Of a stretch of DNA of 64,000 bases, positions 1-55,900 are shown piece after piece; within the stretch, counting starts at the first letter, position 1, and the number at the start of each line of letters is the position of its first letter. A program made the position numbers and the translations under genes. This DNA comes from Climacium dendroides (Eukaryota; Streptophyta; Bryopsida; Hypnales; Climaciaceae). The DNA lies in assembly GCA_950106755.1 (NCBI GenBank), contig OX467090.1:7626001-7690000 (forward strand). The letters are read 5' to 3'. Under the pieces are notes generated by a model, which saw nothing but the letters and a program-made list of their open reading frames with translations, was not told the origin of the DNA and did no database searches.

Positions 1-59
1 TCAAAGTGGAAGTACCTATTCCCATATATTTACTTTTCCCCTGCAATGCTGATGAGGAT

Positions 60-265
60 GTTCTCATCCGATGGATGACAGAATATTTCTAGTAGGACAG
101 AAGTGCAATTATTCATCTTCAAAATTTTGTTGTGAAAAGGGCAGGTCTTCTACAATAGTTTGACTTTCAATGAGTGTTTTTTGCATTTTTTTAAGTCAAT
201 GATTCACATGGTAATCAAGGGGATAGTTTACATGGTCAATAGTCTGTCCTTTAAGGGCTAAGCAT
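60..265 (+). repeat. Dispersed repeat A, copy 1
   Basis: The reverse complement of this stretch aligns with 8090-8300. Shared blocks include AGCCCTTAAAGGA, CTCATTGAAAGTCAAACTA and a CACAACAAAATT-like block, in the same order and with similar spacing. The copies are clearly diverged. No coding capacity is seen. Confidence 0.7.
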
Positions 266-1204
266 TTGAACTTTTTGTAGAAAATTTCTACTTCTACAAA
301 AAAAAAATAATGCAATATTTGACAAAAGTATTGGAAATTATAATTTATTATGAATTTATCTTGTATGCCCTCTAAATACCAAATTGTTCATAGGTAGGGG
401 TTAGGGTGTTCAATTTTATTTTTGTAGTAGTCATAAACTTCCTTTTGTTGATTTGTAGCTATAAATCCTTTATATCTATGGACATGGATGAAACATGCAA
501 AATGTAAATGATACCTCACTTGTTAATTCAAAAGTGTTTACATTTACAAGGATACTATAGTCCACTATTCTCTAAAGGTTCTGTAGCAATTTAATGATTT
601 CAGCTATATTGTGAGAAGGAGGAATATGTTATCAAATTTTTCTTCAAAGAAAATTATATCACTATTGAGCAATAAATAACTATAGAATTACATTTAATTG
701 GATATATGAACATTCCCAAAAAATTCTTCAAAAAAATTATATTACCATTGAACAATAAATCACTTCAGAATCATATTTTATAGGGTCTATGAACACTCTA
801 AAGAAATTTGTAAACAAACATTACTTGACTTATAATCCATGAGTAGGTGACTTTGATTCCCCCATGCATCTTCAAGATTCAAAATTCCAATCTTGAATTC
901 CAAACTTCAAACAAACAAAAAATAAACAAACTATAATTCAATAAAACTAATTCTAAAGGTACAACTAGAAGATTTGTTACCAAAAATTTTAAAAATAGAA
1001 ACCTCCACCTCCATTCTTCATTCTATTTAGATTTGTTTTTCAAATAGTACAAACATGGGGACTCACTAAATAGAATTTTTATCATCAACTACCCTCCTAC
1101 ATTACAAACACCATAAATGGCAAAGACCTTATTATACGCTATATATACATGTAATTATAACATCATTCAAAGTAAAATGAAAAACTCAGTCACTTTATAG
1201 TGTG

Positions 1205-1740
1205 GATTCCTTAAGCCCTAAATGTTTAGAATCATCTCCAAAATTGACAATTTGGGGAAAACCATTATAAAGTACAATTAGGAAGAATATTTTGGAATTG
1301 GTATATAAATAAAAGTTGTAGATTTTGAGTTGTAGATTCCATCCGTACGGTTAGATTCACCAATGCTATCACCAATATTTTTCTATAAATTTTGAAAGGA
1401 AAATTTCAAAATTCCTTCTAAATTTGATTACAAACAAAATATTATCATTTTTTGAGTAAAACTTGTTGGAATGGATTTGAAATGAGGTTCTCTTGACATG
1501 GTGATTTTATGAAATTTTTGTGTTCTTTACATCTATGACCTCATTTTTGCAAATCCAATTTAGAACTAGAGTCAATGCAATTTGACCATTTGACACATTT
1601 CCCCATTTGTAATTTTAGAAAAATATGCACTCCAAGAATACCAAATCCAACCATTAGATAAGACAAGAATTTGATAAAATACCTCCTCAAATTAAGATGA
1701 CTTTCATCCAAGCACAAATGAGAAAGAAATAGGAACATGA
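1205..1740 (+). repeat. Dispersed repeat B, copy 1 (left arm flanking the DUF1350 gene)
   Basis: The reverse complement matches 9240-9787 over about 540 bp with interspersed substitutions. Shared blocks include GCTATCACCAATATTTT, AAATTTTGAAAGGAAAATTT and CCAAATCCAACCATTAGATA. The outer edge reads CCTTAAGCCCTAAA here and, reverse-complemented, CTTTAACCCCTAAA in the partner, so both copies end at the same place. The two arms bracket the DUF1350 gene. Confidence 0.8.
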
Positions 1741-1881
1741 ATCTGTTCGTCGTCCAGAAATTGGATGTCGAAAAGGTTAAATCATGGGAGCAACACGAAA
1801 CAAAGTTATCTCAAATATTGTAATGTTATCTATTTAGGCACGTTATCTATTTAGTGTAGAATACACTAAATAGAATGAAGA

Positions 1882-2361
1882 GTGTGGTTAGCCCTCGCCA
1901 CCTGTAGGACGCCGCTTTCTAATAGTCGGTTCTCCTTCTTCTCAAGACTGCCCCCCAAGACCCCCCCTCAAGACTCCCCCTCAAGACTCAACGCCGTGGT
2001 GAGCTCTCTCGCTTGTCACGCACTCTTCACAAACTCTCTCCCAGATTTCTCATCTGGTTTCCCCTTCTGCAAATTCGAAAAACCATCCCCCAAACCACAA
2101 ACAAGCCTTGCGCGAGTGCCTTGAAAATTCTCTCTCCACTATTTCTGGCTCGCCCCACTCCTCAGGTGCATGCTCTTCAATTCTCCCCTTCCGTTTTCTC
2201 AATCTCCTTTTTCCTCTCTCTTCAATTCAATTCAATTCCAATTCCCCAATCCCCAGTTTCCAAGTAAACATTCGTTGCAATTGAATTTTGGGATAGCTCC
2301 CTGTTTTGGGGCTGAATGAAGTTGCATTTGAGCTGAATTCGAGAACTTTTCATGTGCAGTG
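1882..2361 (+). promoter_or_regulatory. Probable promoter and 5' leader of the DUF1350 gene
   Basis: This stretch is richer in C and T than the AT-rich DNA before it and contains short repeats of the type CTCAAGACT followed by C runs (about 1940-1990), then CT-rich sequence to about 2240. Such tracts are common in plant 5' leaders. No TATA element or start site can be fixed. The small frames at 1882-2124 and 2013-2267 look like leader shadows rather than proteins. Confidence 0.4.
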
Positions 2362-5300
2362 ATGGCGGCACACGCATCGGTCGGAGTGGCTATTGCGGTC
2401 ACTGCGATCTCGGTCTCGAGCTCGGGACGTGTGATTCCAGGGCATGTGAATTGTGGACTTGCAGTGTGCAATGGCTTCACGGGGGGGTTGCGCACAAGCG
2501 CAGATGTGGCGATGTATGGTAGACGTGGAAGGAGTCCGGGAAACAGGCGTCACAGAATGCTGCAAGCAAGAGCGGATCTTAATGATAAGCAGAAGGAGAG
2601 TTTGCAGCTCTATGGCAAGATTGAGAGGTCAGGCAGTTGCATATCTGAGAATGGTTAAGAAAGTCGCATTCCTTTTGTGTGCTCTAGTCTTTCAGGTTTA
2701 GAGCAAGAATTCAGACGTTTGTCCGTGTAATGTGTCCATTCAAGTAATTCATAACGTTTCAGGGCAGGGTTGATCGACCACCGTAGCTGCACTATGGTTG
2801 GCAGTGACTAAACCTATTTTTAACATAGTTGGTCTTCGTGCAAACTCTTTTATCTTGAACTGAAGGTATAAAAGAGCTGTGCCAATTGAAGAAAATGTCA
2901 GAGGATTAGGGTCTCTTGGATATCGCAATTCTTCCTTGAATCAGCAGATGGACTCAAGGGGCTGGATTCAAGGGGTTGGGGGCTCTTAAACCTATTTACA
3001 GTAGTTGGCTGAGTGTCTTTCATTCTTGAACTCAAATTATAAAGGATCTGTGCCAATTAAAGAAAATTTTAGAGGATCAAGGTCTCTTGCATATCGTGAT
3101 TCTTCCTTTGAATGAGCAGATGGGCCAAGGTGTTGTGCTGTGTTAGGTCTTTTGAATAATTGTTTTTGGGGTAGATTTGTTGATTGTAGTGGTAACCTCT
3201 AAAGTCCGTATATGGCCAGAAGTGGATACTTCCCACTTCCAGGTTAAGTCACTACAAGTAGAGCCGCAAGCGATTGCATCCATGTCTATTGGACTCGAAA
3301 TGAATCATTTAGGAAGTTTGAGGAAGGTAGTAAACATGCCACTACATTTAGACTTGTTTATTATGGCCCCTTCTAGAATGACATTTTGGAATATTCTGCA
3401 CACTTGTGACAAATTCAATTATTTCATTGCCAGTGTTTTGGGACCTAGGCAGTGGATTAAAGAGGTGAGGTTGTAGAAAGAAGGAACAATTTGCTACATT
3501 TTTGAATTGTAAAAAGCTGTTTTTGGAAATTAGTATATTTGGCAATGAGCTTCCAAAGTTGGTTCTATATATTTTAGGGTTTGGGCACTAAGAGGTACTG
3601 CATCTGCAATCATGGAATAGATGTTATATTGTGCTATTTGTATACGTAACCTTCTGTGTTGCTACAAAATTTCTAGCTTCTTGCTTGTGTCATTATAATT
3701 GTGGTAACGTTTGGTTAAATGGGATCTGGTGGGGAATTAGGGTGATCGCTGATACAGCCCAACGGACCACTGGTGGTGACACGGACCCCGGAAGGTGGAA
3801 AGATATTCAGGTGTGTAATGAATCTTTGCATTCCAGTTGTAGCGTGTTGACATTGTTTCGTTGTTCCCGTTCTAGTTGGGAAGGAGCACATTGCTCAAAT
3901 TTGCTGGAACTTCAATTTTAGTGATGCTGGACCATGAAATTTTGTGTCCAGGTTTGCTATTAAACTCTTCAAGGGGTCCGAATCATAAGATCTCTAAGTA
4001 TGTTCTCTTTCAATGAAATCCACCCTATTGTACTTCTCTGCCAGGTCACTTTACACTCAAACCTCTTTATTACGATCTTCTCTAAATTGAAATTCTAATA
4101 TATCCTGCACACTTGCCACGCTGTCATTGAGTCTAGCACACTTGCCACACGTACAATCTATGTCATAGTGAAAAAAATGGGATCAAGCGGTAAGGTTAAA
4201 GAGACTTGAGTGTATGTCTACGCAGTTGTTTTATGCTAAAGAGTTTGGGGGATGAGTTTAGGGCTCATGGGTACTTACACCAAGTAAGAAGGAAGCTGTG
4301 GCCGTAGTGCACTTCATAGGCGGAGTCTTTGTTGGAGCAACACCGCAATTGACATACCGTTTGTTTCTGGAACGTCTTTGTGAAAGGTAACCAATTGTTT
4401 TTATTCCTTTACTTCATTATCTCTTCTGCATTTTGTTCAATCTGCCAATGTTGGATCTCATCATGTACTGTCTCTTGATGGCAGGGGCTATGTTATTATT
4501 GCAACACCGTACGCTAGTGGATTTGATCACCTAAGAATTGCGGATGAGGCTCAGTTCAAGTTCGACCGTTGTGTACGTGCTTTAGTGGATGACTACAAAT
4601 ATCGACCTCTGGTGCAGTAACTCAGTCTTCTCTCTGTTCTATCCTGCTTATACTATAATCCTTTTACTTACAATGCTCATGCCTCTGCGTCAATCTCCAT
4701 AGAGGTACTAATATTTTAGTGTTGTTGCTTATGATAGGTGGAGGATATGCCTGTTTTTGGAGTGGGGCACTCACTTGGAGCATTGACCCATCTTCTCATA
4801 GGTGAGGTGCTTTGTTGTCTAGTCTTCGCTTGTGTCTATTCGCAACTGAAAACAGGATTGTTGGTCGACGAGTACGTGTAAGTCGTGACCGTGCTAGTCA
4901 GCTTCTTTGTTTGGAATAGTTTCAAGGACAGCTTTTTGTTTTTAAAAGGGTGTCTTCGTCTTCGCAGGGGCTAGGTACGCGGTTCAACGGAAGGGCAATG
5001 TAATTATATCTTTCAACAACAGGGTAAGCAAACTTTCCTTCTTTAGTTTTTTTCGTTCTTTATTAGGAACGTCGCGTGATGAAATTAGCATATATTCGTT
5101 CAATATTTTATGATGTTCTAACTGGAAGGTGAGAAAGTTTACTCTAGGCAAGACCTCTCTATACAAGATCCTTATGCTTTATTTTCAAGAATTCTTGTGA
5201 TGAAAAAAATAGACCACAAACATCAGTTGTCTCCTGCACACGACACACTGCGCACAAGGAGGAATTATTGAAGTAAAAAAAATCCGGAGAAAACGGGTTT

Positions 5301-8703: not shown

Positions 8704-9239
8704 GCTAAGGTAACTCTAAAATTGCAAGAATAAGCTTTGCAGCATGACTAATATGCTTTAGAAAATGAACAACAACTTTGCACGTTGGTAAAGGTGGTTC
8801 CATAATTTTTGGACACATTATGAATTAGTTACAAACTTTCAAAGATGCAAGGTGTAAGACAAGCAAACCTATATCCATCTGTTGAAGAGGATAGGTCATT
8901 GCAATATAAAAATTTGAGCATGCAAATAAGTGTCATCACCAACCTTCTCCATATTTAAATCCACTCAAATTACCAAAAAATCCATCAACTAATGATCACA
9001 AATTTATGCCCTTCCAATCTCATCTGCTACCATTATCACAAGATTTCCAAATCTCAACTACACGGTAAAGGTGCCAAATGTAGGGTATGACTTTGAAGAC
9101 CAACCAGAATTAGGTTTGCCTACCCTAGGGTGCTAAAAATGTCATGTAGGTGATGCCAAAATGCATTCAATGCACACAAAAGAATGACACTCGAGAAGAA
9201 GTTGACCCTGAAGCACTTTAACATTCGATTTTTAAACAA
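8704..9239. other. AT-rich intergenic DNA
   Basis: No reading frame, repeat or RNA gene could be supported here. Confidence 0.5.
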
Positions 9240-9787
9240 TGAACAGATTGCAAATCACTTTTTTTTCTCATTATTATTTGGACAAAAGTCATCCTAATTT
9301 GTGGAGATACTTTATCAAGTTGTTGTCCTATCTAATGGTTGGATTTGGTATTATTATAGAACATTTTAAAAAAGAATTACAAATGTAGAAGTGTGTCAAG
9401 TGGTTGACCAAGTCAAAATTGCATTGACTTTAGTTCAAAACTAAATTTACAAAAATGAGGTTATAGATTTAAAGAATAGAAAATTTTCAAAAAATCACTA
9501 TATCAAGAGAATCTCATTTCAAATCCAATTTAACAAATTTTACTCAAAAAATGACAATATTTTGTTTGTAATTGAATTTCAAAGGAACTTTGAAATTTTC
9601 CTTTCAAAATTTATAGAAAATATTGGTGATAGCATTAGTGATTTAACTATATAGATGAAATCTAAAACTCAAAGTTTATAGCTTTTACTAGTTTCTCAAT
9701 TCCAAAATATGCTTCCAAAATGTACTTTATGATGATTTTTTTCAAATTGTCAATTGTGGAAAAGACTTTAAACGTTTAGGGGTTAAA
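9240..9787 (-). repeat. Dispersed repeat B, copy 2 (right arm flanking the DUF1350 gene)
   Basis: Inverted partner of 1205-1740. Its outer edge reads TTTAGGGGTTAAAG at about 9768-9782, recalling the TTAACCCC ends of the large transposon at 15165-29680. It contains no gene. Confidence 0.8.
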
Positions 9788-15164: not shown

Positions 15165-16215
15165 TTTAACCCCTTACCGCCCAAGGCCTAACCATGTCAA
15201 AAAACAACCTTGCTTTTCGAGTGTTATAAGTCTAAATATGAGTAAGTTATGAAAATCTTAATCATACAATCTTGTAGTGTGCATGTTGTAGATGGTGTAA
15301 ATAAAATTTGGGGTCATTTGACCGTATAGATTGAAAGATTATAATGTTTTAGTGTTGACAAAAGATGCTGAAATTTTCCTAAAAACACATTTGGAGGTGA
15401 AATTCGATTTCTAAACCTACTCAAATGAAAAAACTTTAAACTACAAAGTGATTTAAAATCAAAAGACAAACACTTTGGTGTAAAAAAAATCATTCAATTG
15501 ACTCATTGCGTTTGCAAAATTGTTTTGAAATGTCAAAAAACAGTGAAAAAGTAGCAAAAAAAAACACATCTATGGCTAAACCTACCTCTACTAAAATGCT
15601 TCTTAGTTAATCATAACTTCTTGGATTGATATGAAATTTTTACCACAAGAACTAGACTAGTATGCACAACTTTTCCAACAAAAATTATTGAAAACAAACC
15701 CTGTCTGAAGAAGTTATAAGTCGCCAAAGTTCACTATAATGCAAAAATGTCTGGAAATTGAACTTCAAATTGCTCCCAAGCATTGAAAACAACTTGGATT
15801 GACATGAAAACTTTATCACAATAAGTAGACTTTATGGGGAACAAAACCCAACAAATTTTATTGAAAACTAACATTTGATGAAAAAGATACAAGCCCCCAA
15901 AGTTGCAGCCATCTCATTGCACTGTGGTGAACTCAAATTGAACCTGCGAACTTTGAATGGATTTCAAAAACTCATTACATCTTGGATAGACCTGAAAATG
16001 TTACCACAAAAAATACAACGATGCTAGCATGCAAGCCTTGAGCGGCGAGCTTGTGAGCTGCGAGCGTAGGCCTTGCGAGCGTGGAGCCCCAAAAATTGGA
16101 AACCCCCCCCCAAAAAAAAACCCAAAAAAGATAATTTTTTTTCCAAAATTAGACGTATATTTACTATTTTTAGTAAAATTTGGGACCTATGACCAAGACA
16201 CCTATAACCGTGAAT
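15165..16215 (+). repeat. Left terminal and subterminal region of the large transposon
   Basis: After the 22-bp terminal repeat come diverged subterminal units of roughly 180 bp, opening near 15611, 15789 and 15977. Each carries a CTTGGAT(T/A)GA...GAAAA/T..TT(A)CCACAA-type block followed by a TAGACT-like word and, in the first two, TTATTGAAAAC. A G+C-rich block with repeated GCGAGC and TGAGC words follows at about 16021-16085. Near 16170 lies GGGACCTATGAC, matched in inverse on the right side near 29445. Confidence 0.65.
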
Positions 16216-16439
16216 TTAAAAAAAAGAAGTTATTTCAATAATGACCATTTGAAATGGGAAAATTTCCTTAAACATTAGTATACATTTAGGCATGTACTTC
16301 CAACTCTATAATGCAACTATGTATGCATTCACCAATCATTTATAGGAAAAAATATAATTAGTTTAGAGTTTAATACTACAGAAAATATTTGGTGGATATT
16401 AACTAGCCTCCACAATAGCTGTTATTGAAGAATTCTTAA

Positions 16440-16545
16440 GACTTAGCTCAATACAGAGATTGCGCCCAACGGCATAATTTGGGGCCTCACGGGATTCAAA
16501 CCCGGGCCATCACAATTCAGTCTCATAGACCTCTCGCTAATATAC
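16440..16545 (-). mobile_element. tRNA-derived SINE head (pol III A and B boxes)
   Basis: On the minus strand TTAGCGAGAGG at 16540-16530 fits a pol III A box, and GGTTTGAATCC at 16502-16492 fits a B box, about 27 bases apart, as in a tRNA. The sequence between and around them does not fold into an obvious full tRNA cloverleaf, so a tRNA-derived SINE head is more likely than a tRNA gene. The 3' boundary and any tail are not clear. Confidence 0.5.
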
Positions 16546-16579
16546 CCCAACTTAATGGAGTGATTACTCAAGTGAAAAA

Positions 16580-16935
16580 AATAAATATAAAGCATAGAAG
16601 ACGTTGGACTAGAAAAATGGGTAAGCAACTATGAAAAAGAAATGACATAGAAGAGAAAAAGAAAACAAAAGGAAGAAATGGGAAGTGAAGGGTAAAAAGG
16701 AGGGTACTAAATGATACAAAATAGAAAACTAAAATGAAATAAAAGTAACAATGGAGGAAAAAACAATAGTATGGACTTGGGATAGGAAAAATATAAAAAA
16801 AACATACAAATGCATGACGAAATAAATGAAAGTCAATTTCAAGAAGAATGGAAATACTAATGGAAACCCAAGGGAAAAAAGGGGAAACACATGAGAAATA
16901 CAATTCAAGGAAAAAAAAAAAAAATGAAAAAAAAA
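16580..16935. repeat. Purine-rich (A/G) tract
   Basis: About 350 bases in which the plus strand is dominated by A and G, ending in two A runs near 16911-16932. It lies downstream of the transposase stop. The opposite strand shows Phe/Ser/Leu-rich frames that are products of composition only. Confidence 0.6.
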
Positions 16936-17049
16936 TGTCACATATTCATATTTTCATAACTACATTTTCCTTTACTTCCCATCAATTCAATGGTATTTTG
17001 AATATATTAATAAAATACCACTGAAATACATATGAAGTTTACTACATGC

Positions 17050-20000
17050 CTATTGTGGCACAGTGATTATTCCTGCTCGAAGTAAAAGAAGTTTCAACTC
17101 ATTAAAACTATAACTCGGTGCATGAATGAATTTGTCGTCGTGGATGTCCATCTTGTAGAAATATCGATACAAGTAATATAAGTGCTTGCAATTCACGTAC
17201 TGTTGACGTCCTCCAATAGCTGAAGTAGACATGTTCACAAAGTCTAGGCATGTGCAAGAAGGAAACATACCCATTGTCACTCGATACACATTTCTGTTCT
17301 GATCTATTCCAGTCTCTAGAGATATGATTGCACCTAGTCCTAGGAAAGGAAGCAAGGTCACTCCTAGAATTTGACCTCTAACATTGCCTACACTCTTCCA
17401 CTTATTGCGTTGTTCTACAGTTGGTGCATTTGCTATTCGCCGTATGGTTCGATAAGTTGGAGTTGGTGTTCCCTTTCGTCCTCTTGCAATTCGAACAGTG
17501 CACTTGATATTTGACCCTCGCTGCTGAGCTTGACACTTAGCATTAGATTTGTGATTGATCCTTGCAATGTGCCACTTTGATGTGTCACAGTCGCTTTCAA
17601 ATGCAATTATGACATGGTTATACCTATTTGACTCTGGTTCTTTTCCTTTGCCCTTTGAAGAGTTTGTAGGAAGAATAGTGGACCTTGTTCGGACATGAGG
17701 TTGAGAGAAATTTACTTTGTCTGGTCGATGTGAATCTCCTGCATCGCCAATTGGAACGTCCAATTTCCTCTTTGTGCTCCCAAAGATCTCTTCTCCTTCC
17801 AAATGTGGTATACGACTTCCAATTCCTTCAGACCCAAGTAGGGAATTCAATGCTTCTGCCATTTTCTTAGGATCTCCACTTCGTCTTACAGCTCTCAACT
17901 TCAACTCCCCCTTTGACGGACCAGATCGAGAGGCATGGCCTCTCAAATATGCACGGTAGTTTGTCATTTGCATCCACGCACGGATGCTATCATCACATGT
18001 GGCATCAAACAAATTGTTTCCTCGGTTGCCAGACATTTGAAGCCACTTATTATGAACTGTCTTTGATAGATTGCACGAAGGCATGTCTGCCATTTCCTCC
18101 AAATTCAAATCCTAGACATGCATCTAATAATCAAAATTACTTCTCATAATTACTTTCATTCATTCTAGCCACAGAAAATAGTAAAGACCACAAACTATGT
18201 GCATGTATAGTTCAAATGGGATGAAAGGCATTCCTAATCAATTAATTATAAGAACATACTATTCTTGCTCAAACAAATATGTCATCAACATACTACTCAT
18301 TTCTTAAGTCCAATATGACTACAACTAGTCCGTATGGTAGCAAAATGACATACACCAAAGTAAATATTCTCTTACCATTTGCATGAAGCCCCCCCACTAT
18401 CGATATCTGAAATGCCAAAATGCCAACCAATGCTCCAAGTGATGAAGCGCATCTTCCGTGGTAGCACCTGATGATAACCACCATGAACGAATTGCTAGGT
18501 AACGTGTCTCTGCCTCCTCCATAGTTTTCGCATCTTTATACTGTTTGCAGAGTGTATTGTGTTGTTGTTGAAATGCTTCCTTTATATGTTTCTGAGTATG
18601 TTTTTGGAGAGAAGTACTCCAATGTAGTAAGCATGTCCTCTCCCTATTTTCCATTTTGGCATTGGCACATCCACTTCTGTAGACAATTCGAACTGCATTC
18701 CAATTGGCCATAGCACTATCTGCCATGAACCCTTTGAAGTTTGGGTGATGTAATCCATGTCTTGACATTACAACATTCAATGACCTCCAGAATTGCACTT
18801 GAATTTCCGTATCTTCGGACTACATATCGCATGTTGCAATGGTCATTACCTTTTTGTATTCGGAATCGTACACGTGGCAAGCCATTGTGGTCCAATCCTT
18901 CACACACTTGACGTGGTCAAACATCATCCATGCATTCTGCAGATTTCCCCCTGGTTGCATGCGCTTCACCAAGTCCACTCCACTACCAGGTCCTTCGGTG
19001 AGCATCTTGAAAAGGTATACTTTCTCCTTTCCTTGACCAGGAAAAACGCTATCATGAATGAACTCGAACTTCGAGTCTCTCTTCATGGTCATAATGTTGT
19101 CTATGAGTCCTCCTCTATTGTTTGAGCGAAATGAAGAAATCACATTCCGAATGTTAGGACTGCTCAAATACTGGAAACGATCCATCACTTCCTCTAATTC
19201 CTCTCCTTCCAACATCTTTTTCTCTCCATTTCCGTTGTGAAATAGATAGTTTGTAAGGAAGTCTTTGCTTGCCGACAGAGCAATGGCGGAGTATGTGGCC
19301 GTAGGTGTTTTGGCCACTTGCTCCGCAATCAATTCACTAATCTTCTTTGCAGAATCTCTATACATGCCTTTGGCAATAGGGTGAGCATGATCTCCAAAAT
19401 GAATAGCGGTCCTAGTCATTTTTGGATTCTCACTATAGCAGTAGTACATCCTAGCATCACAGGTGCTTAAACACGTAGGAGTTTTTCTACAAAGTTTACA
19501 AACCAGAGTACAGTCTTTGGGAGGAGTATCCCCTACTATGAAAGCGAAGCTTGTTGCACCACTCCACTCAGTTTCGTTGCGCTTTGAAGCCCGCTTCAGA
19601 TAGTCACACTCTACATTTAGACAAACAAGATAACCAGCGTAGTATGACTTACGGAACTTCAACTTATCGCAGTTGTGGATGTTTGTGGTCACCAACTTGC
19701 ACCATGGGTGTCCATCATATTTCTTGTCCATTCCTTCCAAGTTCTTGGCCGCTGATGAAGAAGAAGATGAACGACATGGAGGCAACTCAAATATGACATT
19801 TCCATTGAACATGGGTGGAAGAAACTGTACGCGATGGTGCTTCATGCTGTTTAAGTCCGTCGTTGACAACTCATTCCGTGAACGATGCATTTTACCTAAT
19901 CCCCTCAAAGACTCTATTATACTCACTCGGTTCCCTATATCTGGATGCAATGGAGGACGGGGCACTCCAGTTTGACCTCCATTGTTTGATGGGGTGCTTG

Positions 20001-20136
20001 ACAGTGGCTTCACCAAACCATTTTCTTGCCATGCAACTTCAATTTTGCATGCATTTTTCTGAACTGTTAAGTCAGGGGACTCTCCTTCTGATTCACGAGA
20101 CAATTCTATGATGGTATCTAACTTCTCAATTTTCAC
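17050..20136 (-). pseudogene. Mutator-like transposase with SWIM zinc finger, two in-frame stops
   Basis: Two exons, 20136-18376 and 18111-17050, join at GT-AG sites in phase 0 to 941 codons. Residues ~150-280 hold Cys/His pairs (CLNVEC, CKLCRKTPTC, LSTC, then HFGDHAHP), resembling the WRKY-GCM1/FLYWCH zinc class found at Mutator transposase N-termini. FDHVK (Asp codon at 18918) and MADSAMANWNAV (Asp at 18720) are candidates for the first two acidic residues of the RNase H-like core; the third is not assigned. The second exon ends with a SWIM finger: CTC near 17250, 19 residues, then CKH near 17185. TAG codons at 18820-18822 and 18397-18399 interrupt exon 1, yet frame, splice sites and similarity continue past both. 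No frameshift is seen. It lies head-to-head with the ParB-methyltransferase gene. Host domestication is unlikely given the stops. Confidence 0.75.
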
Positions 20137-21131
20137 TAGGCAAAGACCTGAGTTATCAAGAAGGACTAGAAGAGCTTCACGACTAGGACTGGATGATTTT
20201 TGTGATCTGGAGCTTCACATGGTCTGCATACAATCCATTCCAATAAAACCGTCTTTCTACCTTGATGTTCTGAGATTAATGGAAAGTAGAAGTGAACATT
20301 CCAAATGCATGGAGCGTCTTCTTAAATTAGATTACCCTGAGATTCTTCCAGAGACAACCGACCTCATGCATGGAAATTAACTTTTGCTTGAAATCAGGAA
20401 ATTCATAATTCAGACGTCGAAATTTCAAGCTTCCACGACGTCGCATGCATAAGGTGTCATCTCATGCTGTGGACTTGCTAAATCCGAATGCCACCGAAAA
20501 TCCATTTCCCCCTAAACTACCTGTACTCCATGTGAACTTCTCCTGCGTGCAGAATCTCCTAGACTACTGAAATCCATTTCATCATGTGGCCATATTGAAT
20601 TTTTTTGACTTGCTACTAAAATCTAGGACCGCTTGTGGCCATGCTCAAATCAAGGACCAGACTGTCCGTGGCGTCTCTACCTCTGCTTCACTTCATTTCC
20701 AATGAGCATTGCACATGGTATCTTTCTTCCATTCAACACTCACAGATCTAGCTACACGGTCCAGGAGTTCTCCGTGGTTACCCTGAGGTCCTCCTCTTTG
20801 ATAAACATCTTCTTTTCTTATACTGCATCATGAAGTTTACATTCCCATCGTTATATCCTCGTTCATTTCTGCACTGTCAGTGATGAACTACAGGATCCCC
20901 GAAGGTGGTTTACCTTATATATCTACGCTTGAACGAATTCAGAAATTAAGCATCTCCAGTCCTGCAGGTGGCTTTCAACTTCTTCGAAACGTTCCAAATT
21001 CCGAGAATGCGCAACACCAAGAGACGCCGGCGAATGGAGCCGGGAGAGACAAAGCCGACACCGACTTCAAATGAGCTGCACAACAACCAGGTCAGGGACC
21101 TCTGCTAGAAAATGTGGTCATGTCTTGCAGA
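20137..21131. other. Transposon interior between the divergent genes
   Basis: This spacer lies upstream of the transposase and probably holds its promoter and leader. No frame of interest is seen; 20108-20380 (+) overlaps the transposase start region in antisense and is not supported. A run resembling a leader with several upstream ATGs extends to about 21075. Confidence 0.4.
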
Positions 21132-21373
21132 TGTCGTGAATCAGGGGACTTCAACTAGCAATACAGAAACCAGGGGTAGCGTGAGCTACCCCAAAGAACC
21201 CTGTCGGACCCGATAGGATTTCTTGGGGTAGCTCACGCTACCCCCATTTTCGTTTTTCAAAAAACGAGGTGTCCTTGAATATCCGATTGATGCAGCAGCA
21301 GTTCGGTACCGCATGCTTCGTTAGGAGCAGACATCCCCCTTTTTTCTTGTTCTTTTTCTCCAAAACTGTCGCT
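21132..21373 (+). repeat. 242-bp direct repeat, copy 1, with inverted pair
   Basis: Starts TGTCGTGAATCAGGGGACTT and ends near AAAACTGTCGCT. It matches 22816-23057 at equal length with about a dozen substitutions. Inside is an exact 20-bp inverted pair, GGGGTAGCGTGAGCTACCCC at 21173-21192 and its reverse complement at 21225-21244, separated by 32 bases. Confidence 0.85.
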
Positions 21374-22815
21374 GCCCCTTTTGTAGTCTGTGGCCGTTGC
21401 AAAGCACGGCGTGGAAACTCGAATCCAATCACCAAAATCCAGAGGCAAAGTGTCGCGATCCAAGTGACACCTAACAGCTTCCAGTAGCTCACTAGGTTCA
21501 CTCCAACCCACTTATAGCGTCACTTGGTCACCAACTACCTAACACTGCACATGCCAAGCACCCACAGTGTTAGTCCCCATTTTTAATTCAGTTTGCCAAG
21601 TCCCAGTCACCAGGACTACTAGCACACACTCCCATCGTGACACCGGGCATGTCACTTAGTAACATGGGGCGGAACTTCCACCTTAATGTTCAAGGACCCA
21701 TGGTGGCACTACTCACCATGGTCCTCACCGCCCTTGAGTGTCACCCCACTCCATGCTAGCCCTTTTTGCATTTGCTACTCATCCACTAGAGGTAACCAAC
21801 GCTCACAACTCGGGACACATCCAAGGAGGCCTAGTAAGGAGCGGGACTCCACCCCACCGATGCCACGGGACACACACAAGTGTCCCATGGTGCCTTGAAG
21901 TGGTGGTGAAGTCACCACCACCAACCATGAGTCACCGGGACTCATCAAGGCTTCAAGAGGGAGGGAGGAGGGAGACCAACCCCTCCTATAGTACTCTCTG
22001 TGGTATTCGGCAGACCCCCCCGTCCTAGGTCGAAGGAAGTCCTTGGATAACCTTGGGTTGTGGAAGACCACCCACTTCCAACCCAAATCGCCAAGTTACG
22101 TCACCGTTTGGGCTCCCGAACTTCCAACCGGTGTAACTTTGCGCTCAAAGCTCCAAATCCCACATGCAAGCCCATTTTAGATATCTACGCAACGAGTAGA
22201 TGCCGATGGACTGCTCACACGTCCCATTTGGACAAATACTCGCAAAGTTATGGCCCTCTAAAGATTCGGATGCACCGGGGGAGGCGTCACGCCTTCACCA
22301 CGGCTCTTCTTTTGGCCATAACTTTTGACTCATGTCTTAGAACCTCGTAATGCTTGTCATTCTAGGTTTCTTGTGTTCATAGCTTTCCAATGATATGCCA
22401 CATGCCATACTTTGTTGTGGGATTCATTGGGAACCCCTCACACCTAGCCCTCAAGTGTCCCGACGCCACCGGGATCCAGTCAACTTTGAGCGGCCATAAC
22501 TTTTCGCTCACAACTCCAAATTGCGCGTTATTTGCGCCATTAGAAGCGTATTGTCAAGAGCTTTCCAAGAATGTGTGGCATTCTCATGTCCACTTCAAAA
22601 CCAGGGCGCTATTGCACCCTGTTTAATCGGGAGTCTCTTCATTCTCCCTACCTAGTCTATTGCAAGGCTTGGGAAGTCACCCCCAAGGTCCCCCCTTGCG
22701 CACTAAGGTTCATTTGGGCACCCCAAGTAGATAGGGGCGTGACACAAAGCCAGTCCACCTTGCAGACTTCAATGTGTGAAGTAGGGGTACCGAAACAGAA
22801 CCATGCAGTTCCTCA
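21374..22815. other. G+C-richer segment between the two 242-bp repeats
   Basis: About 1.44 kb of DNA visibly richer in G and C than its surroundings, with repeated short words such as GTCAC, CACCAC and GGCCATAACTTTT (near 22313 and 22490). No long open frame or domain is seen. If the 242-bp repeats are LTR-like, this would be the interior of a small non-autonomous element. Confidence 0.45.
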
Positions 22816-23057
22816 TGTCGTGAATCAGGGGACTTCAACTAGCAATACAGAAACCGGGGGTAGCGTGAGCTACCCCAAGGAACCCTGTCGAACCTGATAG
22901 AATTTCCTAGGGTAGCTCACGCTACCCCCATTTTCATTTTTCAAAAAACGAGGTGTCCTTGAATATCCGATTGATGCAGCAGCAATTCGGTACCGCATGC
23001 TTCGTTAGGAGCAGGCATCCCCCTTTTTTCTTGTTTTTTTTTTCCAAAACTGCCGCT
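22816..23057 (+). repeat. 242-bp direct repeat, copy 2, with inverted pair
   Basis: Second copy, 1684 bases after the first. Its inverted pair is at 22857-22876 and 22909-22928, with one mismatch in the outer base. Copy boundaries were set where the two flanks stop agreeing: GCAGA versus CCTCA before, and GCC versus ACT after. Confidence 0.85.
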
Positions 23058-23940
23058 ACTTGTCTTTTTTTGTTTGTCCTATTTATTTATATTGTCTCAT
23101 GGTTGAGGTTCATGTCGGTGGTCTGATCTTGATGATTTGAGGCAAAATAAATACTTGGAACCATCGTTGGGTGCCTGGACCGTCAACGACCTCAAATATT
23201 GTTGACGTGATTGTGTTTCGGTTGTATTGAAGAAAAGTCGAAATTCGACTCTAGTTTTTGTCAAGTCTAATTTAAATTTGTAAATCCTTTGATGGAAAAG
23301 TCATAGAGTATTAATAGCTTATTTTATACGGAAAGTTCTGGAAATGCTTTTTGAGGATGCAATGAAGGGAACTAATGTAAAAAAGTCGTTTACTTTGAGC
23401 TTTAATGTTTTTACTACACATAAAGTATCCAACCTCTCGTAGTTGGTTTCTGTTTAGGGACTAAAAAACTTTAAAACAAGGTAGCGCAAGGTATTGTACA
23501 CACCTCCGTCCGACCGGATAGGGTTTTGGGGGGTGGGTTGCATTACCCTTCATTTTGGTCTTGCAGAAGGAAGTATATTTTTAATTTTAGGGAAGTTTTA
23601 ATGTGCATGAGTTATGTTTCAATAATTGTTTTGATTCTTTGAGTTTCCTACCTGTAGAATTTGAAGGAAGGGATAGGCATATTTCATAAGAGGACTTTTC
23701 CAATTTTGGTGCAAATTACAAAATTTATAAATATTTGGTATTCCAACTATAGGAATGTTAAATATTTAATATTCCAGCTATAGGAAATGGAAGTCAAGTA
23801 ATTTTCGGATGTTAGGTTTTTATTTTAATATTATTTCTTTCTTCCTACTTTTTATTGATGTATTTTTAGTATTATTTTTTGAAAATTTTATTCCATTCTG
23901 ACTGACATTGGCCTACCTCATTATTAAAATGCTTTTGCAG
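23058..23940. other. AT-rich spacer before the rightward transposon genes
   Basis: No coding potential is seen. It ends in TTTGCAG at 23934-23940, a good splice acceptor, so an intron of an upstream leader may end here. Probable promoter side of the ParB-methyltransferase gene. Confidence 0.35.
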
Positions 23941-24417
23941 ATGCATACACATGAGAGTCTGAACAACCATGCGCTTTTACCAGTACCTTCCAATATGGCA
24001 ATCCATATTGCAGATGTTGCAGGAACTTCAGAACCTAGGACTGCAGGAACTTCGGAACCTAGGACTCCAGAAGACAGGAACGTCAACATTGGTAGCCAGT
24101 CATTGCCTCATGAAGACACTGACTTGGTAAGCCTTGGAGACATTCTTGATGCTTGTGACCGAACAGCTGATCAATTAGATGAACCTTGTTGCAGTAGGTT
24201 CAGTGATTCCAACAGACGAAAGCGAAAACAACTAGTGTTCTCTCTTGAGAGTTCTAAGACTGAGTACAGCAGCTGTAACTGTCAAACATCAATCTCCATT
24301 TCTAGTCCATCAATAGAGGATATTAGAGATAGTGCTTGCAACTCCAATTTGGGCAAGCACAAAATTTTCCTCATCCACTTGAGTTCTGACTCAGATGCTA
24401 GTGTAGAAATTGATTGA
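23941..24417 (+). CDS. Unrecognised acidic/serine-rich transposon protein or 5' exon
   Basis: A 158-codon frame opening with ATG directly after a splice-acceptor-like TTTGCAG and ending TGA at 24415-24417. It contains a 24-bp tandem duplication (GTSEPRTA / GTSEPRTP), a basic NRRKRKQ stretch that could act as a nuclear signal, and a Ser/Asp-rich tail ending in SSDSDASVEID. No domain is recognised. The ParB-methyltransferase frame begins 220 bases later, so this could be a separate transposon protein or an alternative first exon. It has no internal stop, unlike its neighbours. Confidence 0.4.
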   Translation: MHTHESLNNHALLPVPSNMAIHIADVAGTSEPRTAGTSEPRTPEDRNVNIGSQSLPHEDTDLVSLGDILDACDRTADQLDEPCCSRFSDSNRRKRKQLVFSLESSKTEYSSCNCQTSISISSPSIEDIRDSACNSNLGKHKIFLIHLSSDSDASVEID

Positions 24418-24637
24418 GTTGGAAAGGAATAGACGCCATTCCAGTGTTGCAGCATTTGTATTACTTAGTCATTGGTATTATCATAAAATGTTCCATTATG
24501 TATTACTTGTACAATCTTTTGTATTGAGGACTTTCTTACCATCATAGTAAAGATTTGGTTTGCAAGTTCAACTTGGAACTTCATGAGGACTTCCGTGTAT
24601 TTCCTAATTGACTTCGGAAATGTACATGGTCTTGCAA

Positions 24638-27600
24638 ATGGAGGAGTCACCAATTAATCTGTCACAGCCAGAGGAAGTTCATTCAACTCCACCTACTAGT
24701 GAAAGAGGTCAACCAGAAATTGGCACTGAGGAAGAAGGAGATGTTGAGGTGAATGATGTTGAGGAGGAGGAGGAGAAGGAGTTGCTGGAAGATGAACTCC
24801 GATGGTTGCATAAGGTAGACTCCGTGGCTACCATTGAGAGTTTGAGGATGAGGCCTCAAAAACACTCCCGAATGCGCATACCTTTGTGCAGATTGGTACT
24901 CATGCTAATGGTTAGGCCCACCCTCTCTTGTGATCTTGTAAAACTTGAACAAGAGTTTGTTCATGGATATCGGGATGGAGCCGCAATTTTTTACGTGTCC
25001 ACAACTAATGAGGCGGGGGAATCTTCGGAATTCTCAAGAGATGAAATAGATGCTTGGGGTCCTTTGTGGAAATCAGAAAATGACATCTTCAATGAGTACT
25101 TAGATTCTTTGCCGGAATTGAGTTACTTGAAGAACTCCAAGTTCTTTATCTGTGATGGAAATCACCGTCGCTTGGCATGGATGAATCATATATCAAGGCT
25201 GCATGTGGCGGAAAGGGCTTGGCACATTTCAATAGACAGCATCATTCTGGACACAAAAGGGAGAATAGAGCTTGTCATGCAGATTATGCATGACATCAAC
25301 AAGTAAGTAAGAATGTATCATATAAAGGTGTTTGATTTAACATAATCTTTGACTTTTAGTATTTTGAGGCTCAATTTCTTTATATCTATGAAATGAACTT
25401 ATTGTTTAATGTGAATTGTAGGTCGACGGAGGATTCCCATGTCAAGACCAATCTAGTTCACACTCTTTATCGTATTCAGAAGTATGGGCTTCTTCCCATG
25501 GAGAAGTTCAATGAAATGTTAAGACCTTCTGAAAGGAAACGTTGTGATACGCAATCTGTGTGAAAAACATGGTACTCAATGCCAATGGAGGTCTTCACGG
25601 CATTTGTTTTTCGGGTAAGAGTGAAAATGTTCTAACTGTTTTATATATGTTTCATTTTATGTCATGATAATATAGGAAAGGTTGAAGAATGTGAAAATTT
25701 GGTATAATTGAAATTGTGTTGATGTTATTTTATAGCAAGAAATAGCACAAGGAGCAAATGCCGCAGTACGAAAGTACAATGAAGTGACAGCAAGTGAAGA
25801 TAAAAGTGATTAAGGGGTGGCTAATGCCATGAGGATTGGAGCTAAGGAGAAGGCGGCGAAGCTATACGTGAAAATGGGAAAATTGCTTGCGGTGGCAAAT
25901 CCTACTCACGGTCCAGGATTTTTGGAAGAGGTGATGGAGAATTTTGATGTGAAAATTGATTGTTATATTTTTTGTTATTATGGTGTATTTATTGTTGATA
26001 AAATTCTATTTCATTTTGAAGGTTGAAAAGCATTGGACCACGAATGAGGTTCCTGAAATGACTTTGGAAAAGCTCCAAATGATAGCTACTTGCAATACCT
26101 CTGCAACACAGAAGACAAAGTTGTTGAAGTGGTGGAACTCATCCTTGCCTTCACGGGATGCTAGATGTTTCCCTCCAAAGCCAGTTTCCGAAGAGAAATT
26201 GGGGCCCTTCCTCAATAAATGGGTTTGCTGGGCAGGGGTAAGTGTTTGTATTTATCTAAATGACTTTTCATATATATATAATGTCAAAATCTTGAAGTAC
26301 TACATTGTAAAGTTTTGTTTTTTTATGTATATCGAACAACAATGAAAATATACTGACAACAACATGATGCAGATTGAGGATAGTGCGGTAGAGTACTTTG
26401 ACAATGTAGTCAATAAAGATGGTCTCGAAATCAATATGGCAGCCCCGCTTTAACCAGAGTATCTTCCAGAGTATATAGAGGGATGGAGAAGGAAGATTTG
26501 GGATCAGGGTTTTGGCCCGTCTTTGAAGGGATCAAACCCTTTCAAGAAGTCAGAGACCTTCTCAAATTTTGATGGATCAAATGAAGCTGTTCGTAGAGTT
26601 ATTTTTCGGTACATTTATGTAAAAATGAATTTCATATTTCCTTGATTTCTTTGGAGGATTAGCATATATAGTTATTTGTTCAGTGAATGTGTATTATTAG
26701 TAACAAAGAATTTGGCTATGTCATTGTTACTAACTTTTGTAATGTTCTTATTGTAGGTATTTCAAGTACGAGCTTCTAGGGAAGAACGCCATCTCTAGGG
26801 AGGATCTTCCTCCATTTCTAACCACATGGTTGGACCGGAGTTCTGAAGACTGCATGTACATATCAAGCCAACTGAAGACATTCACGACGGCTCATCTCAA
26901 TGGTGGTGCATGGTACCTAGATTGTCCGTTGACATTCACTCATCCATCAAAAATAGAACTTCGGAAATCACTAGATGGTCTCGGCGTCATTGACTTGGAT
27001 GTTCCCGAATTCAACAACTACAGTGATCAACAGAAGAAGAGAGCAACTGCAAGGAGAATAGTTGTTGACAAGAAGAAAGAGAACAAAGAGCAAGAGATTC
27101 GTGAGAACAAGGAGAAAAAAGAAGCGGAGCGTCTTCTCAAGTTGGTAGAGAAGGAGAAGGAGAAAGAAGAGGGGAAGGGGAAAGGCAAAGGCAAGAACAA
27201 GGAAGAAGGCAATAAGCAAGTACCGGCCTCTTCAACGGTTGATCAAAACTCGCACATGCAAAGTGGATACCAAAGTGGATTGAAGAGGAAGGCAATACTT
27301 CCAGATTTTACAAAGGACATCGTGACACAAGGTACTCAAGTCATAGTCCTTGGTGATGATGTAGACATCACTTCAGAGGAATTGATCTTAAACATCTCTA
27401 TTGTCGACGTCATAGATAACATGGAGTCCGACATGCCTACGTGCTATACTGAAGTGACAACCTTTTTGAAGAAGGTAACCATGATGTTTTGCCTAAAACT
27501 AAGAATCCTTTTTTTTTTGGCCCTTTGAAACAAAGTTGTATGAATAATTGATTGTTTGTATAAATTCGTTTGTGCAGTTGACACTAGGGAAGGCCCGTAT

Positions 27601-28957
27601 GTATGGAGGTAAAGTGAGCCGAGCTCCTTTAGTGGACCTCATCTTTTTTGACTGCCAGGATAATTTACCTGTCCCGGATGTACATACTCCAGAGAAAGCA
27701 ATACCTTCATGGAATTCAGATCCAGAGTATAAAGCCATTCAATCGGCTTTCTTCTTTGCAGATATGCACTTACAAGACCATGGTTGCATGATAGTATTTC
27801 AATCATGGTGTGCCAATTCAAAGGGCATTATTGCAAGATTGTGCGAGTCTTATCCTTCACTAGTGAAGAAGAAGGAATGGTTGGGTATCAATCGTATGCA
27901 CTTAACGTCAGCTGTGGATGACTCAGAAACGGTTAGTGTTTTCAAATATTTTCATGATTTTAATGGAAATTGACATTCACAAATGGTTGTATTCTTTTCT
28001 AATATATAATTTTTTTATGACTGTAGACTTTGAAATTTGGAATCACTCTCTTGGTGAAGGACCTCGGTGATAAAGAGAAGTTGAAGTTTTCTTTGAAGCG
28101 GTCACAAGCAATGTAGAAGGCAAAAGTAGACCTACGCAAGGATGATATATTAATTAACTACACAACTGAAGAGAGCATGTTGGTCAATCCACAAACCAAA
28201 ATTCCATGGCGAGGGCCTCGCGAAAAGGATACTAGGCTCTTCCAATTCCTTATAGAGGGGACAACTAAAGAAGGCGACTTGGTTTTGGACTGCACAGCAT
28301 CCACTGGTTAGTTTTCATTTCAAGAATTGGATTTTCATATATGTATTGATATAGTGATTCATTGATATGAATTGCATTTTGTAAATTGTAGGTGCATCAA
28401 TTACAGCATGTCGCGGCACATGACGACACATAGTGGCTTTAGAGGAAGACAATAGTGTTTTTCATGGCATCCTTGAACCCATGAAAAGGAACACTCAAGA
28501 AGATGTGATAATAACTGAAACGCAACCGCCAATGCCGGTTGCATCTTCACAAGATCCTAACGCAATGACTGTGGTTCCTCGAAAATTTCCTCGCCGAACT
28601 AAACCTAGTAAGTAAGTTTTTCATATTTTTGAAGTGTTCTTTGACATCCTACTTCTTCTATTTCGTGACTCTAATATTCTATATGTTTTTTTTAGGCATT
28701 AGAAACTGATGTTCGTGGATGCATTGAGGAAGAGACGCAAACTGGTACTAAGTCCAAAGAAGTCTTTTGATCTCCCAATTTATGCTGAGCAATTAGCATC
28801 AGCATTTGCAAACTTTGGTAGCTTAGAACCAAAACGTAGAAAAGATACATATGCTCTTAATGTTTTGCAATTCATAGATGGATCGGCATCAGAGGGGAAA
28901 GAGACTTCGGAGTCTGAGAGTAGCTTGGCATCTGCAGCTGAGTCCATTACAACCTAG
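24638..28957 (+). pseudogene. ParB-like domain fused to beta-class DNA methyltransferase (transposon-borne), six in-frame stops
   Basis: Ten exons join in phase to 1118 codons plus stop: 24638-25302, 25422-25614, 25736-25948, 26022-26237, 26373-26608, 26757-27474, 27578-27931, 28027-28306, 28392-28611, 28696-28957. After an acidic leader, residues ~110-220 resemble a ParB/sulfiredoxin domain, with FFICDGNHRRLAWM centred on Asp173-Arg178. Residues ~605-660 form a Lys/Glu-rich coil. From ~750 comes a methyltransferase fold: VDLIFFDCQDN (Asp772) at the catalytic motif IV position, DHGCMIVFQSW after it, then LVLDCTASTGAS (Asp953) and HIVALEEDN at the AdoMet motif I position. Motif IV before motif I is the permuted beta-class (N4-C/N6-A) order. 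DCQD replaces the usual D/S-P-P-Y/F. A basic RKRRK stretch lies near the end. Stops at 25561, 25811, 26451, 28114, 28421 and 28700 break it; no frameshift is seen. Exon 3's donor could instead be at 25931. Confidence 0.75.
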
Positions 28958-29414
28958 ATTTATGAGATTGACATATCTCATGAGTCAAATTGTTATGTAT
29001 TCATTTTCAATACCATTTGATTTGATTGTGTGTTTTATAGCTACATCTTTAGTATGATTCATTCCCCTTCAAAATTTTGCATTTTATATTTTCTATGAAA
29101 ATTAATTCTTGAACGTCGAGCTGATTACCGTGGAAATCAGTGATTCTAGAACCCTGTGACATCATATACTTTAAAAATACCAAAAAAACTTATTGGGAGT
29201 CAAAGTACTGTAGAAGATCTCTCTTTCCCACCCTTAATTATGTGGATGAATAGTTGCAATTATGTCCTATATATGAGATTCTTTTGTCATTCATTAAACA
29301 TTTGACGTCCTCCGCGGCGTTTATGGATTAAACACAATTGGTTGTTGCAATTTATAATTTCATTTAAGTTTGTAAGTAAGTTAAATTTATGAAGAATGAG
29401 CTCGCATCTTCAAA
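28958..29414. other. 3' flank of the ParB-methyltransferase gene
   Basis: Probable 3' untranslated region and spacer inside the transposon. No further reading frame is supported. Confidence 0.45.
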
Positions 29415-29680
29415 AAAAATAAGACACTTACATCCACAGTCATAGGTCCCCCACATTTTCTTAATAAAAAAAATTTCCCGCTCATAGGCTCACAGGCTCA
29501 TGGGCTCACACTCACAAGCTCGCCTGCTAGCAACCCTGCAAAAAATAGACTATTATGCGCAACTTTCGCAACAAGTTTTATTGAATTTGGACATTGGATG
29601 CAAAAGTTACAGCACTTTGAAGTTGACTGCTAGACTGTGTGAGGACACTTTTGGGTCCCCTTGGGCGGTAAGGGGTTAAA
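29415..29680 (-). repeat. Right terminal and subterminal region of the large transposon
   Basis: Ends with the 22-bp terminal repeat (29659-29680). Inside it is one subterminal unit (about 29534-29620, with ATAGACTATTATGC and TTTTATTGAA) that matches the left-side units on the same strand, not inverted. Next inward is a block of GGCTCA words (29481-29531) that does match the left G+C-rich block in inverse. So terminal repeats are inverted but the AT-rich unit is direct. Confidence 0.65.
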
Positions 29681-36258: not shown

Positions 36259-37434
36259 TGTAAATAGGTTTTTATTTCTTTAAACTATTAAAATAAATCC
36301 CTATAAAAATGAATATGAACTATGGAAAGTAAACTATTTCAATAGGTTGTGCTATTTACTCCCTAAAAGCATCAATTGCATGATTTTGACATAAACATTC
36401 AATTCCATCACATCAATAGGCTAAGTTTTGAATATACTTATCCCAGTTCTATTAGCTGATATTCTTTAGCTTTATTCCAATTGCTTCTTCTCCAACGCTT
36501 TAATCATTATCTTTTATTTAACTCCAATTGATATTCCATTCTTTTCTATATCATCTGATTGGTTTGCTCCTTATAAATAAAACCTCACCACCTTGATTCT
36601 CTCCAATCATAATTTTATCAATTTACTAGACCAATGTTTCCCAACTATAATTTTATAAATCTCTAACCGACTGATTTATATTAATTTTTCATTTACAATT
36701 TTTAAACCCTATACAACAAATTTCTCACAATTGATACTATCTACATTCTAATGCCATTCACATATCATTTACATTCCTCAACATCCAATCGACTTCAACT
36801 AATTTCTTCTAATTTCACACAATCTTCACAATTTCACTCCAGTTGATTTTTACTGATTTAATTTTATTCACGCTCTAATTGCACAATTCATTCTCCTCCA
36901 ATTCCTCCAATTGATCATACAAACTTATCACACACCTAGCATACAACATTTACTCATTAAATTATCTCCAATTGGCACACAATCCATTCTATTGATTTTA
37001 TAGCTCACACTCACATATAAATTTCAATCCACTAGACAATTGGCACTTATATAATTCATATACATTCAGCATCTCAATCATACACATCACACAAAACTCA
37101 CAACTGCAAACAAACTCATCTATTCATCAACAAGCAAATTACGAAAACAATTGTTTTACTTCTGTTGCTAGAAGGAGTTCTTGGCTTCCTGCTTCACCAA
37201 GAACAACTAAACTAAACAATTGTAAAATCACCAACCTATACACCTATTGTAACCACCAAACAACATACTACCAATTGGAAGTTGAATCCTTCTATATTAC
37301 AATTTGGTTAAATTCCAATCTCAATTGGCAACTACCAATAGTAAGTCTTTAAACTACACTACCAATTGGTAAAAGTTACTAATAAACCTACAAATTACCA
37401 ATTTATCAAAAAGAAAATTTCAATGTAGACTACA
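36259..37434 (-). repeat. 3' LTR of the retrotransposon (left copy)
   Basis: 1176 bp. It differs from the other LTR by scattered substitutions and by lacking about 74 bp present at roughly 52590-52665 in the right copy. It is dense in CAATTG words. Confidence 0.92.
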
Positions 37435-52313: not shown

Positions 52314-53551
52314 TGTAAATAGGTTTTTATTTCTTTAGACTATTAAAATAAATCCCTATAAAAATGAATTTGAACTATGGGAAGTAAACTATTTCAATAG
52401 GTTGTGCTATTTACTCCCTAAAAGCATCAATTGCATGATTTTGACATAAACATTCAATTCCATCACATCAATAGGCTAAGTTTTGAATATACTTATCCCA
52501 GTTCTATTAGCTGATATTCTTTAGCTTTATTTCAATTGCTTCTTTTCCAACGCTTTAATCATTATCTTTTATTTAACTCCAATTGATCTCCTCAATCTTT
52601 CCAGATCTAGCTTCAAGGTTCTTCATCATCTCTCCCGATTGATTTCTTCATCAGTATATATTCCATTCTTTTCTATATCATCTGATTGGTCTGCTCCTTA
52701 TAAATAAAACCTCACCAACTTGATTCTCTCCAATCATAGTTTATCAATTCACTAGACCAATGTTTCCCAACTATAATTTTATAAATCTCTAACCGACTAA
52801 TTTATATTAATTTTTCATTTACAATTTTTAAACCCTATACAACAAATTTCTCACAATTGATACTATCTACATACTAATGCCATTCACATATCATTTACAT
52901 TCCTCAACATCCAATCGACTTCAGCTAATTTCTTCTAATTTCACACAATCTTCACATTTTTACTAATTTAATTTTATTCAAGCTCTAATTGCACAATTCA
53001 TTTTCCAATTACAAATTCCATATCCAAAAATTTAATTCTTCCAATTGATCATACAAACTTATCATACACCTAGCATACAACATTTATTCATTCAGTTATC
53101 TCCAATTGGCACACATTCCATTCTATTGGTCTTATAGCTCACACTCACAGAAATTCTCAATCCATTATACAATTGGCACAAATTCATACACATCCAATAT
53201 CTCAATCACACACACATCACATATAACTCACAATTGCAAACAAACTCATCTATTCATCAACAACCAAATTACAAAAACAATTGTTTACTTTCATTGCTGA
53301 AAGAAGTTTCTACTTCACCAAGGACAACTAAACTAAACAATTGGAAAATCACCAACGTATACACCTAACCACCAAACGACATACTACTGATTAGAAGTTA
53401 AATCCTTCTACATTACAATTTGGCTGAATTTCAATCTCAATTGGCAACCACTGATAGTAAACCTCTAAACTACACTACCGATCGGTAAAAGTTACTAGTA
53501 AACCCACAAAACCACCAATTGGTCAAAAAAGAATTTCCAATTTAGACTACA
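52314..53551 (-). repeat. 5' LTR of the retrotransposon (right copy)
   Basis: 1238 bp, opening TGTAAATAGG and closing GACTACA in plus orientation. It is the 5' LTR because gag lies next to it on the minus strand. Confidence 0.92.
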
Positions 53552-55561: not shown

Positions 55562-55900
55562 TACAAGTCACAAACTAGTTGCAATGAAATTACAAATAAG
55601 TTGCAAATGAGTCACAATGAAGTTACAATTAAGTTACAATTGAGTTGCAAACAATTTGAATCACAAACGAGTCACAAATTCACAATGAAGTTACAATTGA
55701 GTCACATACAATTGAATTGCAAACGAGTCACAATGAAGTTACAATTGAGTCGCAAACGAGTCACAAATGAATTGCAAATGAGTCACAAACAAGTTACAAC
55801 GAAGTTATAAATGAGTTGCAAATGAGTCATAAACAAATTGCAACGAAGTCACAAATGAATTGCAAACAAGTCATTATGTATTATTTGCAAATGAGTTGTT
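55562..55900 (+). repeat. Minisatellite of about 10-12 bp units
   Basis: Dozens of variants of GAGTCACAAA, GAGTTGCAAA and GAAGTTACAA alternate across the block. The open frame that runs through it (55484-55810) is produced by the repeat and reads as Lys/Leu/Gln/Ser-rich low complexity. Confidence 0.9.

Follow-up and report, generated by a model that had tools for sequence, protein, structure and literature searches.

The 64,000-nucleotide stretch of Climacium dendroides DNA analyzed here (the window; positions 7,626,001 to 7,690,000 of contig OX467090.1, assembly GCA_950106755.1) contains a decayed Mutator-like element (MULE) of 13,523 bp that is nested in one copy of a short TTAA-flanked miniature inverted-repeat transposable element (MITE). 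Within a single set of ends, the MULE carries a transposase gene and, divergent from it, a gene that joins a ParB domain to a DNA-methyltransferase fold. Nesting, enclosed gene pair, folds, and decay make up an anatomy of which we are highly confident.

Nesting of the gene-bearing element in a TTAA MITE

The nested structure comprises the following features (positions in the window; those without a strand are unoriented).

15165..16006: left part of the outer MITE, with a 22-bp terminal inverted repeat at 15165-15186 and TTAA at 15166-15169
16007..16015: left copy of the 9-bp target-site duplication CAAAAAATA
16016..29538: MULE, decayed, 13,523 bp
16016..16036, plus strand: left inner terminal inverted repeat, 16 of 21 bases matching the right end in register
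16040..16087, plus strand: GAGC motif array of the left end, six motifs in the first 90 bp
29480..29521, minus strand: GAGC motif array of the right end, five inward-facing motifs in the last 90 bp
29518..29538, minus strand: right inner terminal inverted repeat
29539..29547: right copy of CAAAAAATA
29548..29680: right part of the outer MITE, with a 22-bp terminal inverted repeat at 29659-29680

The original prediction had taken the 22-bp repeats as the ends of a transposon enclosing two divergent multi-exon genes. The inverted pair (15165-15186 and 29659-29680) is indeed perfect, with none expected from 100 shuffles of the window, and it does enclose two such genes. The repeats belong to the MITE, however, and not to the gene-bearing element. 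They read TTAA|CCCC...GGGG|TTAA and are therefore unlike the footprint of a MULE, for which duplications of 8 to 11 bp are given in the available part of PMC6446971. A 21-bp end word including the TTAA, searched with up to two mismatches in the 412.6-Mb genome (123 contigs), gave 721 matches, both window ends counted, and the reversed-pattern control gave 0. Many of the 100 matches listed are facing pairs ~980 bp apart. Twenty end loci were examined, taken as the best-matching places with no random draw: two were the window's own, for 14 a partner end lay no more than 1.5 kb away, and for 4 there was none within 3 kb. The 14 partnered loci represent nine distinct MITE copies. When aligned to the joined flanks of the window, all nine were continuous across the junction and lacked the 13.5-kb insert. 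Seven were 94.0% to 95.6% identical to the joined flanks (two shorter, 594 and 713 bp), and the remaining two were 83.0% and 84.5% identical. Beyond the TTAA, which the search word itself contained (two mismatches being allowed), the flanks differed in all nine copies. A 3-bp target (gtg) for the outer element was rejected because of these differing flanks.

A single 14.5-kb transposon with the 22-bp repeats as its termini would account for the perfect pair around both genes, but we give it next to no credence: the nine empty copies already refute it, and the 719 further end matches, the facing pairs among those listed, and the inner ends with their 9-bp duplication all speak against it.

The outer element is 984 bp long, and its longest open frame has at most 91 amino acids. 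We take it to be of the piggyBac type on the basis of traits that we associate with such MITEs and that it shares, namely, a TTAA target, short inverted ends beginning with CCC, and no long open frame. Its family, ~980 bp in length, has internal repeat units of ~170 bp. Once the insert is removed, the joined flanks can be aligned without a break over the junction to two further repeat units of the outer element, with scores of 53 and 56, compared with 27 to 33 for either flank by itself; against unit 1, the highest score in 500 shuffles was 18.5. A scan of cut points against unit 1, with 100-bp windows on both sides, peaks exactly along the 9-bp duplication.

Between the margins there are 29 exact direct repeats of 9 bp; of these, CAAAAAATA gives the best ends in register (16 of 21; next best, 12), and an in-register match of at least 15 was reached in 1 of 1,000 shuffles. 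When 600 bp from each inner end were aligned locally without constraint, the score was 75, versus a mean of 63 and a maximum of 102 in 200 shuffles, so the inner terminal repeats are short. Terminal inverted repeats are absent from some MULE groups; here they are present, short, and imperfect, with no long similarity between the ends. The 9-bp duplication lies within the MULE range of 8 to 11 bp (PMC6446971, available part). GAGC, counted after the arrays had been noticed, occurs elsewhere at 0.22 per 100 bp per strand.

Transposase and ParB-methyltransferase genes

The exons of the two genes are as follows.

18376..20166, minus strand: transposase exon 1, containing the RNase-H-like core and a putative zinc-binding region, with stops at 18820 and 18397
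17050..18111, minus strand: transposase exon 2, SWIM-like CxC..CxH
24620..25302, plus strand: ParB-methyltransferase exon 1, ParB fold
25422-25614, 25736-25930, 26022-26237, 26373-26608, and 26757-27474, plus strand: ParB-methyltransferase exons 2 to 6, with stops at 25561, 25811, and 26451
27578..27931, plus strand: ParB-methyltransferase exon 7, motif IV region, reading DCQDN
28027-28306 and 28392-28611, plus strand: ParB-methyltransferase exons 8 and 9, motifs X and I, with stops at 28114 and 28421
28696..28957, plus strand: ParB-methyltransferase exon 10, with a stop near its start, at 28700

MULE transposases have a zinc-binding domain, often of the SWIM type. The SWIM transposase of the original prediction is borne out as Mutator-like by the fold match of a relative, a DDE transposase related to IS256/Mutator as is characteristic of MULEs, while its SWIM-like CxC..CxH stretch scores below Pfam's cutoff. 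Pfam Transposase_mut was also below cutoff, both in 1 of 68 sequences (E value, 0.034) and in relative L005 (0.038). Exon 1 matches residues 124 to 723 of relative P0001 (75%; tblastn), and no tblastn match was found for the first 123 residues of P0001. Exon 2 matches L005 at 51% over 230 residues and 41% over 129 residues. L005 (positions 1 to 4101) contains a nearly complete two-exon transposase relative with both frames uninterrupted; it is filed under an uncultured cyanobacterium (cyanobacterial bin) and is probably eukaryotic contamination. The transposase gene of the window is broken by two premature in-frame stops.

Exon 1 of the second gene has a ParB-like domain, identified by a fold match. 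A Pfam search of this exon returned no ParB family and only chance-level rows, such as DndB (E value, 0.032, in 1 of 103 sequences), and PDB sequence searches with it returned nothing relevant. The downstream region is of the beta-type N4/N6 methyltransferase kind, matching phrog_3008 (E value, 2.6e-6) and, below its cutoff, PF01555 (E value, 0.0015). On these fold and profile matches, the predicted joining of ParB to a beta-type methyltransferase stands, as does its divergent orientation. The full-length query gave no match among the 7,992 best word-sharing candidates scored, from which exon-sized frames were probably excluded by length, so that this null result is no evidence of absence.

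Six premature in-frame stops interrupt the hand-made model of the ParB-methyltransferase gene, of which that at 28700 may reflect an error in splice choice. Motif IV is not DPPY but DCQDN or DCQEN in both sequences read, and motif I is likewise altered in the window copy. The row BactPh_scaf37, taken in an incorrect frame, was excluded. The gene, of bacterial type, seems to have lost its methylating motif. The accessory protein might nevertheless work as an N4/N6 methyltransferase and mark the DNA of its own element, a role consistent with its domain homology and proposed for its algal relatives in the accessible text of PMC12477816. We consider this unlikely in view of the altered motif IV in both copies read and the altered motif I of the window copy. 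The DNA-modification roles first suggested for the module are doubtful because motif IV is lost in these two copies.

Probable joint movement of the two genes

That one mobile unit holds both genes is upheld by the inner ends with their 9-bp duplication and by relatives that co-occur on five other contigs. The original prediction was to fall if its inverted ends proved to belong to an unrelated insertion; this is so for the 22-bp repeats, yet the pairing of the genes is rescued by the inner pair of ends. In public sequence, 231 and 319 relatives were found for the element's two proteins, and shared contigs were sought among the relatives listed (the best 120 of 231 and the best 120 of 319). 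These fell on 65 and 31 distinct contig sizes above 10 kb, five of which (15,646, 31,334, 38,454, 239,112, and 583,271 bp) were common to both proteins; 0.006 would be expected by chance, with sizes jittered by up to 5%. A sixth shared size, 2,926 bp (P0099/P0237), was dropped, as the two records come from different sources and such a length leaves scarcely enough room for both genes. Close linkage of the two genes is likely on the three shorter shared contigs. The single pair of ends and the shared contigs support the view that both genes moved together.

On the longest shared contig, the transposase and ParB identities are discordant, and over six pairs (the five contigs and the window) the identity matrices are uncorrelated (r, 0.13; 17% of 720 permutations as high), so that co-inheritance, for which a check had been proposed, is not demonstrated. 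This lack of correlation, together with the presence of another probable nested insertion, would suit a ParB-methyltransferase gene that is a separate element beside or inside the MULE in this copy. Such an origin appears improbable to us, since a single pair of ends with a single duplication encloses both genes and since five contigs, one of only 15.6 kb, are shared.

No relatives were confirmed in viral contigs, where the 21-bp end also had 0 matches; in prokaryotic contigs, one search gave none and another gave only L005.

Two further features lie between the genes.

21131..23057, unoriented: segment with a 243-bp direct repeat on either side (the two 95% alike), probably nested by a later insertion and outside the MULE proper
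21007..24417, plus strand: predicted small gene of 186 amino acids, low confidence, exons 21007-21090 and 23941-24417

The 243-bp repeats (21131-21373 and 22815-23057; 95% identical) each have a palindromic core, and the stretch may be a small retrotransposon lying within a presumed intron; no clear target duplication was seen. The possible third gene is free of premature stops, and its product starts with basic residues (KRRRRM). Elsewhere in the window, direct repeats at 36259-37421 and 52314-53537, ~16.1 kb apart, are probably the two long terminal repeats of one retrotransposon. There are also long imperfect inverted repeats ~8 kb apart (1211-1768 and 9221-9786), a tandem array with an 11-bp rhythm (55555-55891), and ordinary host genes for an amino acid transporter (PF01490; 14016-14402) and NOG1 (PF06858; 62916-63659), which would be compatible with the plant origin given in the original prediction.

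Possible role of the accessory protein and known systems

In the explanation that we favor, and hold to be reasonably probable as a whole, the MULE (16016-29538) inserted into one copy of the ~980-bp MITE, making the 9-bp target duplication and carrying the ParB-methyltransferase-fold gene along with the divergent transposase gene. Since both copies read have lost motif IV, we infer that the accessory protein is non-methylating. Its ParB domain would bind DNA of the element itself or load onto it, with the inward GAGC arrays at the two ends as plausible sites, and its methyltransferase fold would act as a reader or scaffold. The protein could then be a transposition cofactor or an antisilencing factor, like VANC in VANDAL elements. 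Binding to the terminal arrays with such a role is a tentative proposal, and we would sooner bet against it than for it. It is doubtful whether, more specifically, a MULE lineage made a prokaryotic ParB-methyltransferase module into a noncatalytic, CTP- or DNA-loaded reader whose spreading starts at the terminal GAGC arrays, much as that of ParB starts at parS, and which shields or marks the element against host silencing. The ParB domain might instead be a nucleoside triphosphate-regulated nicking nuclease that aids excision or integration, which also seems unlikely to us; according to the available part of PMC5512222, DNA nicking is known for ParB domains of bacteria, including one in a methylase fusion.

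MULEs with extra genes are known (PMC6446971, available part), and a full-text literature search, with most subscription journals outside its scope, found no MULE reported to carry a ParB-methyltransferase. The case also shows that a perfect inverted repeat may belong to a host MITE.

The accessible part of PMC5512222 describes Bacillus cereus Bce_0392, which likewise joins ParB to a DNA methylase. That fusion is bacterial, whereas the gene described here has introns and lies in a eukaryotic transposon; the two were compared by description. VANDAL elements, according to the available text of PMC5735166, are MULEs with an accessory gene and short repeated motifs in noncoding DNA, and their VANC protein binds tandem motifs and removes DNA methylation. 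Binding and hypomethylation have been shown there, whereas here both are conjectural, and the element shows motif arrays at its ends.

The closest description is that of Sola1-1_Ec32 of Ectocarpus, a large DNA transposon with a 1,104-amino-acid ParB-like and DNA methyltransferase protein; green and red algal cases are cited there as well, and methyltransferase activity is predicted only (PMC12477816, accessible part). Both systems have ParB-like and N4/N6 methyltransferase domains in one protein of ~1,100 amino acids, encoded on the strand opposite the transposase. The active-enzyme motif IV is absent from both sequences read here and the carrier is Mutator-like, not Sola1, in a comparison by description rather than by sequence. 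Accessory genes of this class have already been published for algal transposons, so the additions made here, as far as the literature search shows, are the carrier, its boundaries, and the lost motif, which opens a direct test of whether the module writes DNA marks or binds DNA. A module of the same composition is reported from algae, in transposons belonging to other superfamilies (PMC12477816, accessible part), and occurs here in a MULE; if unrelated transposons acquired it repeatedly, it would do something worth having.
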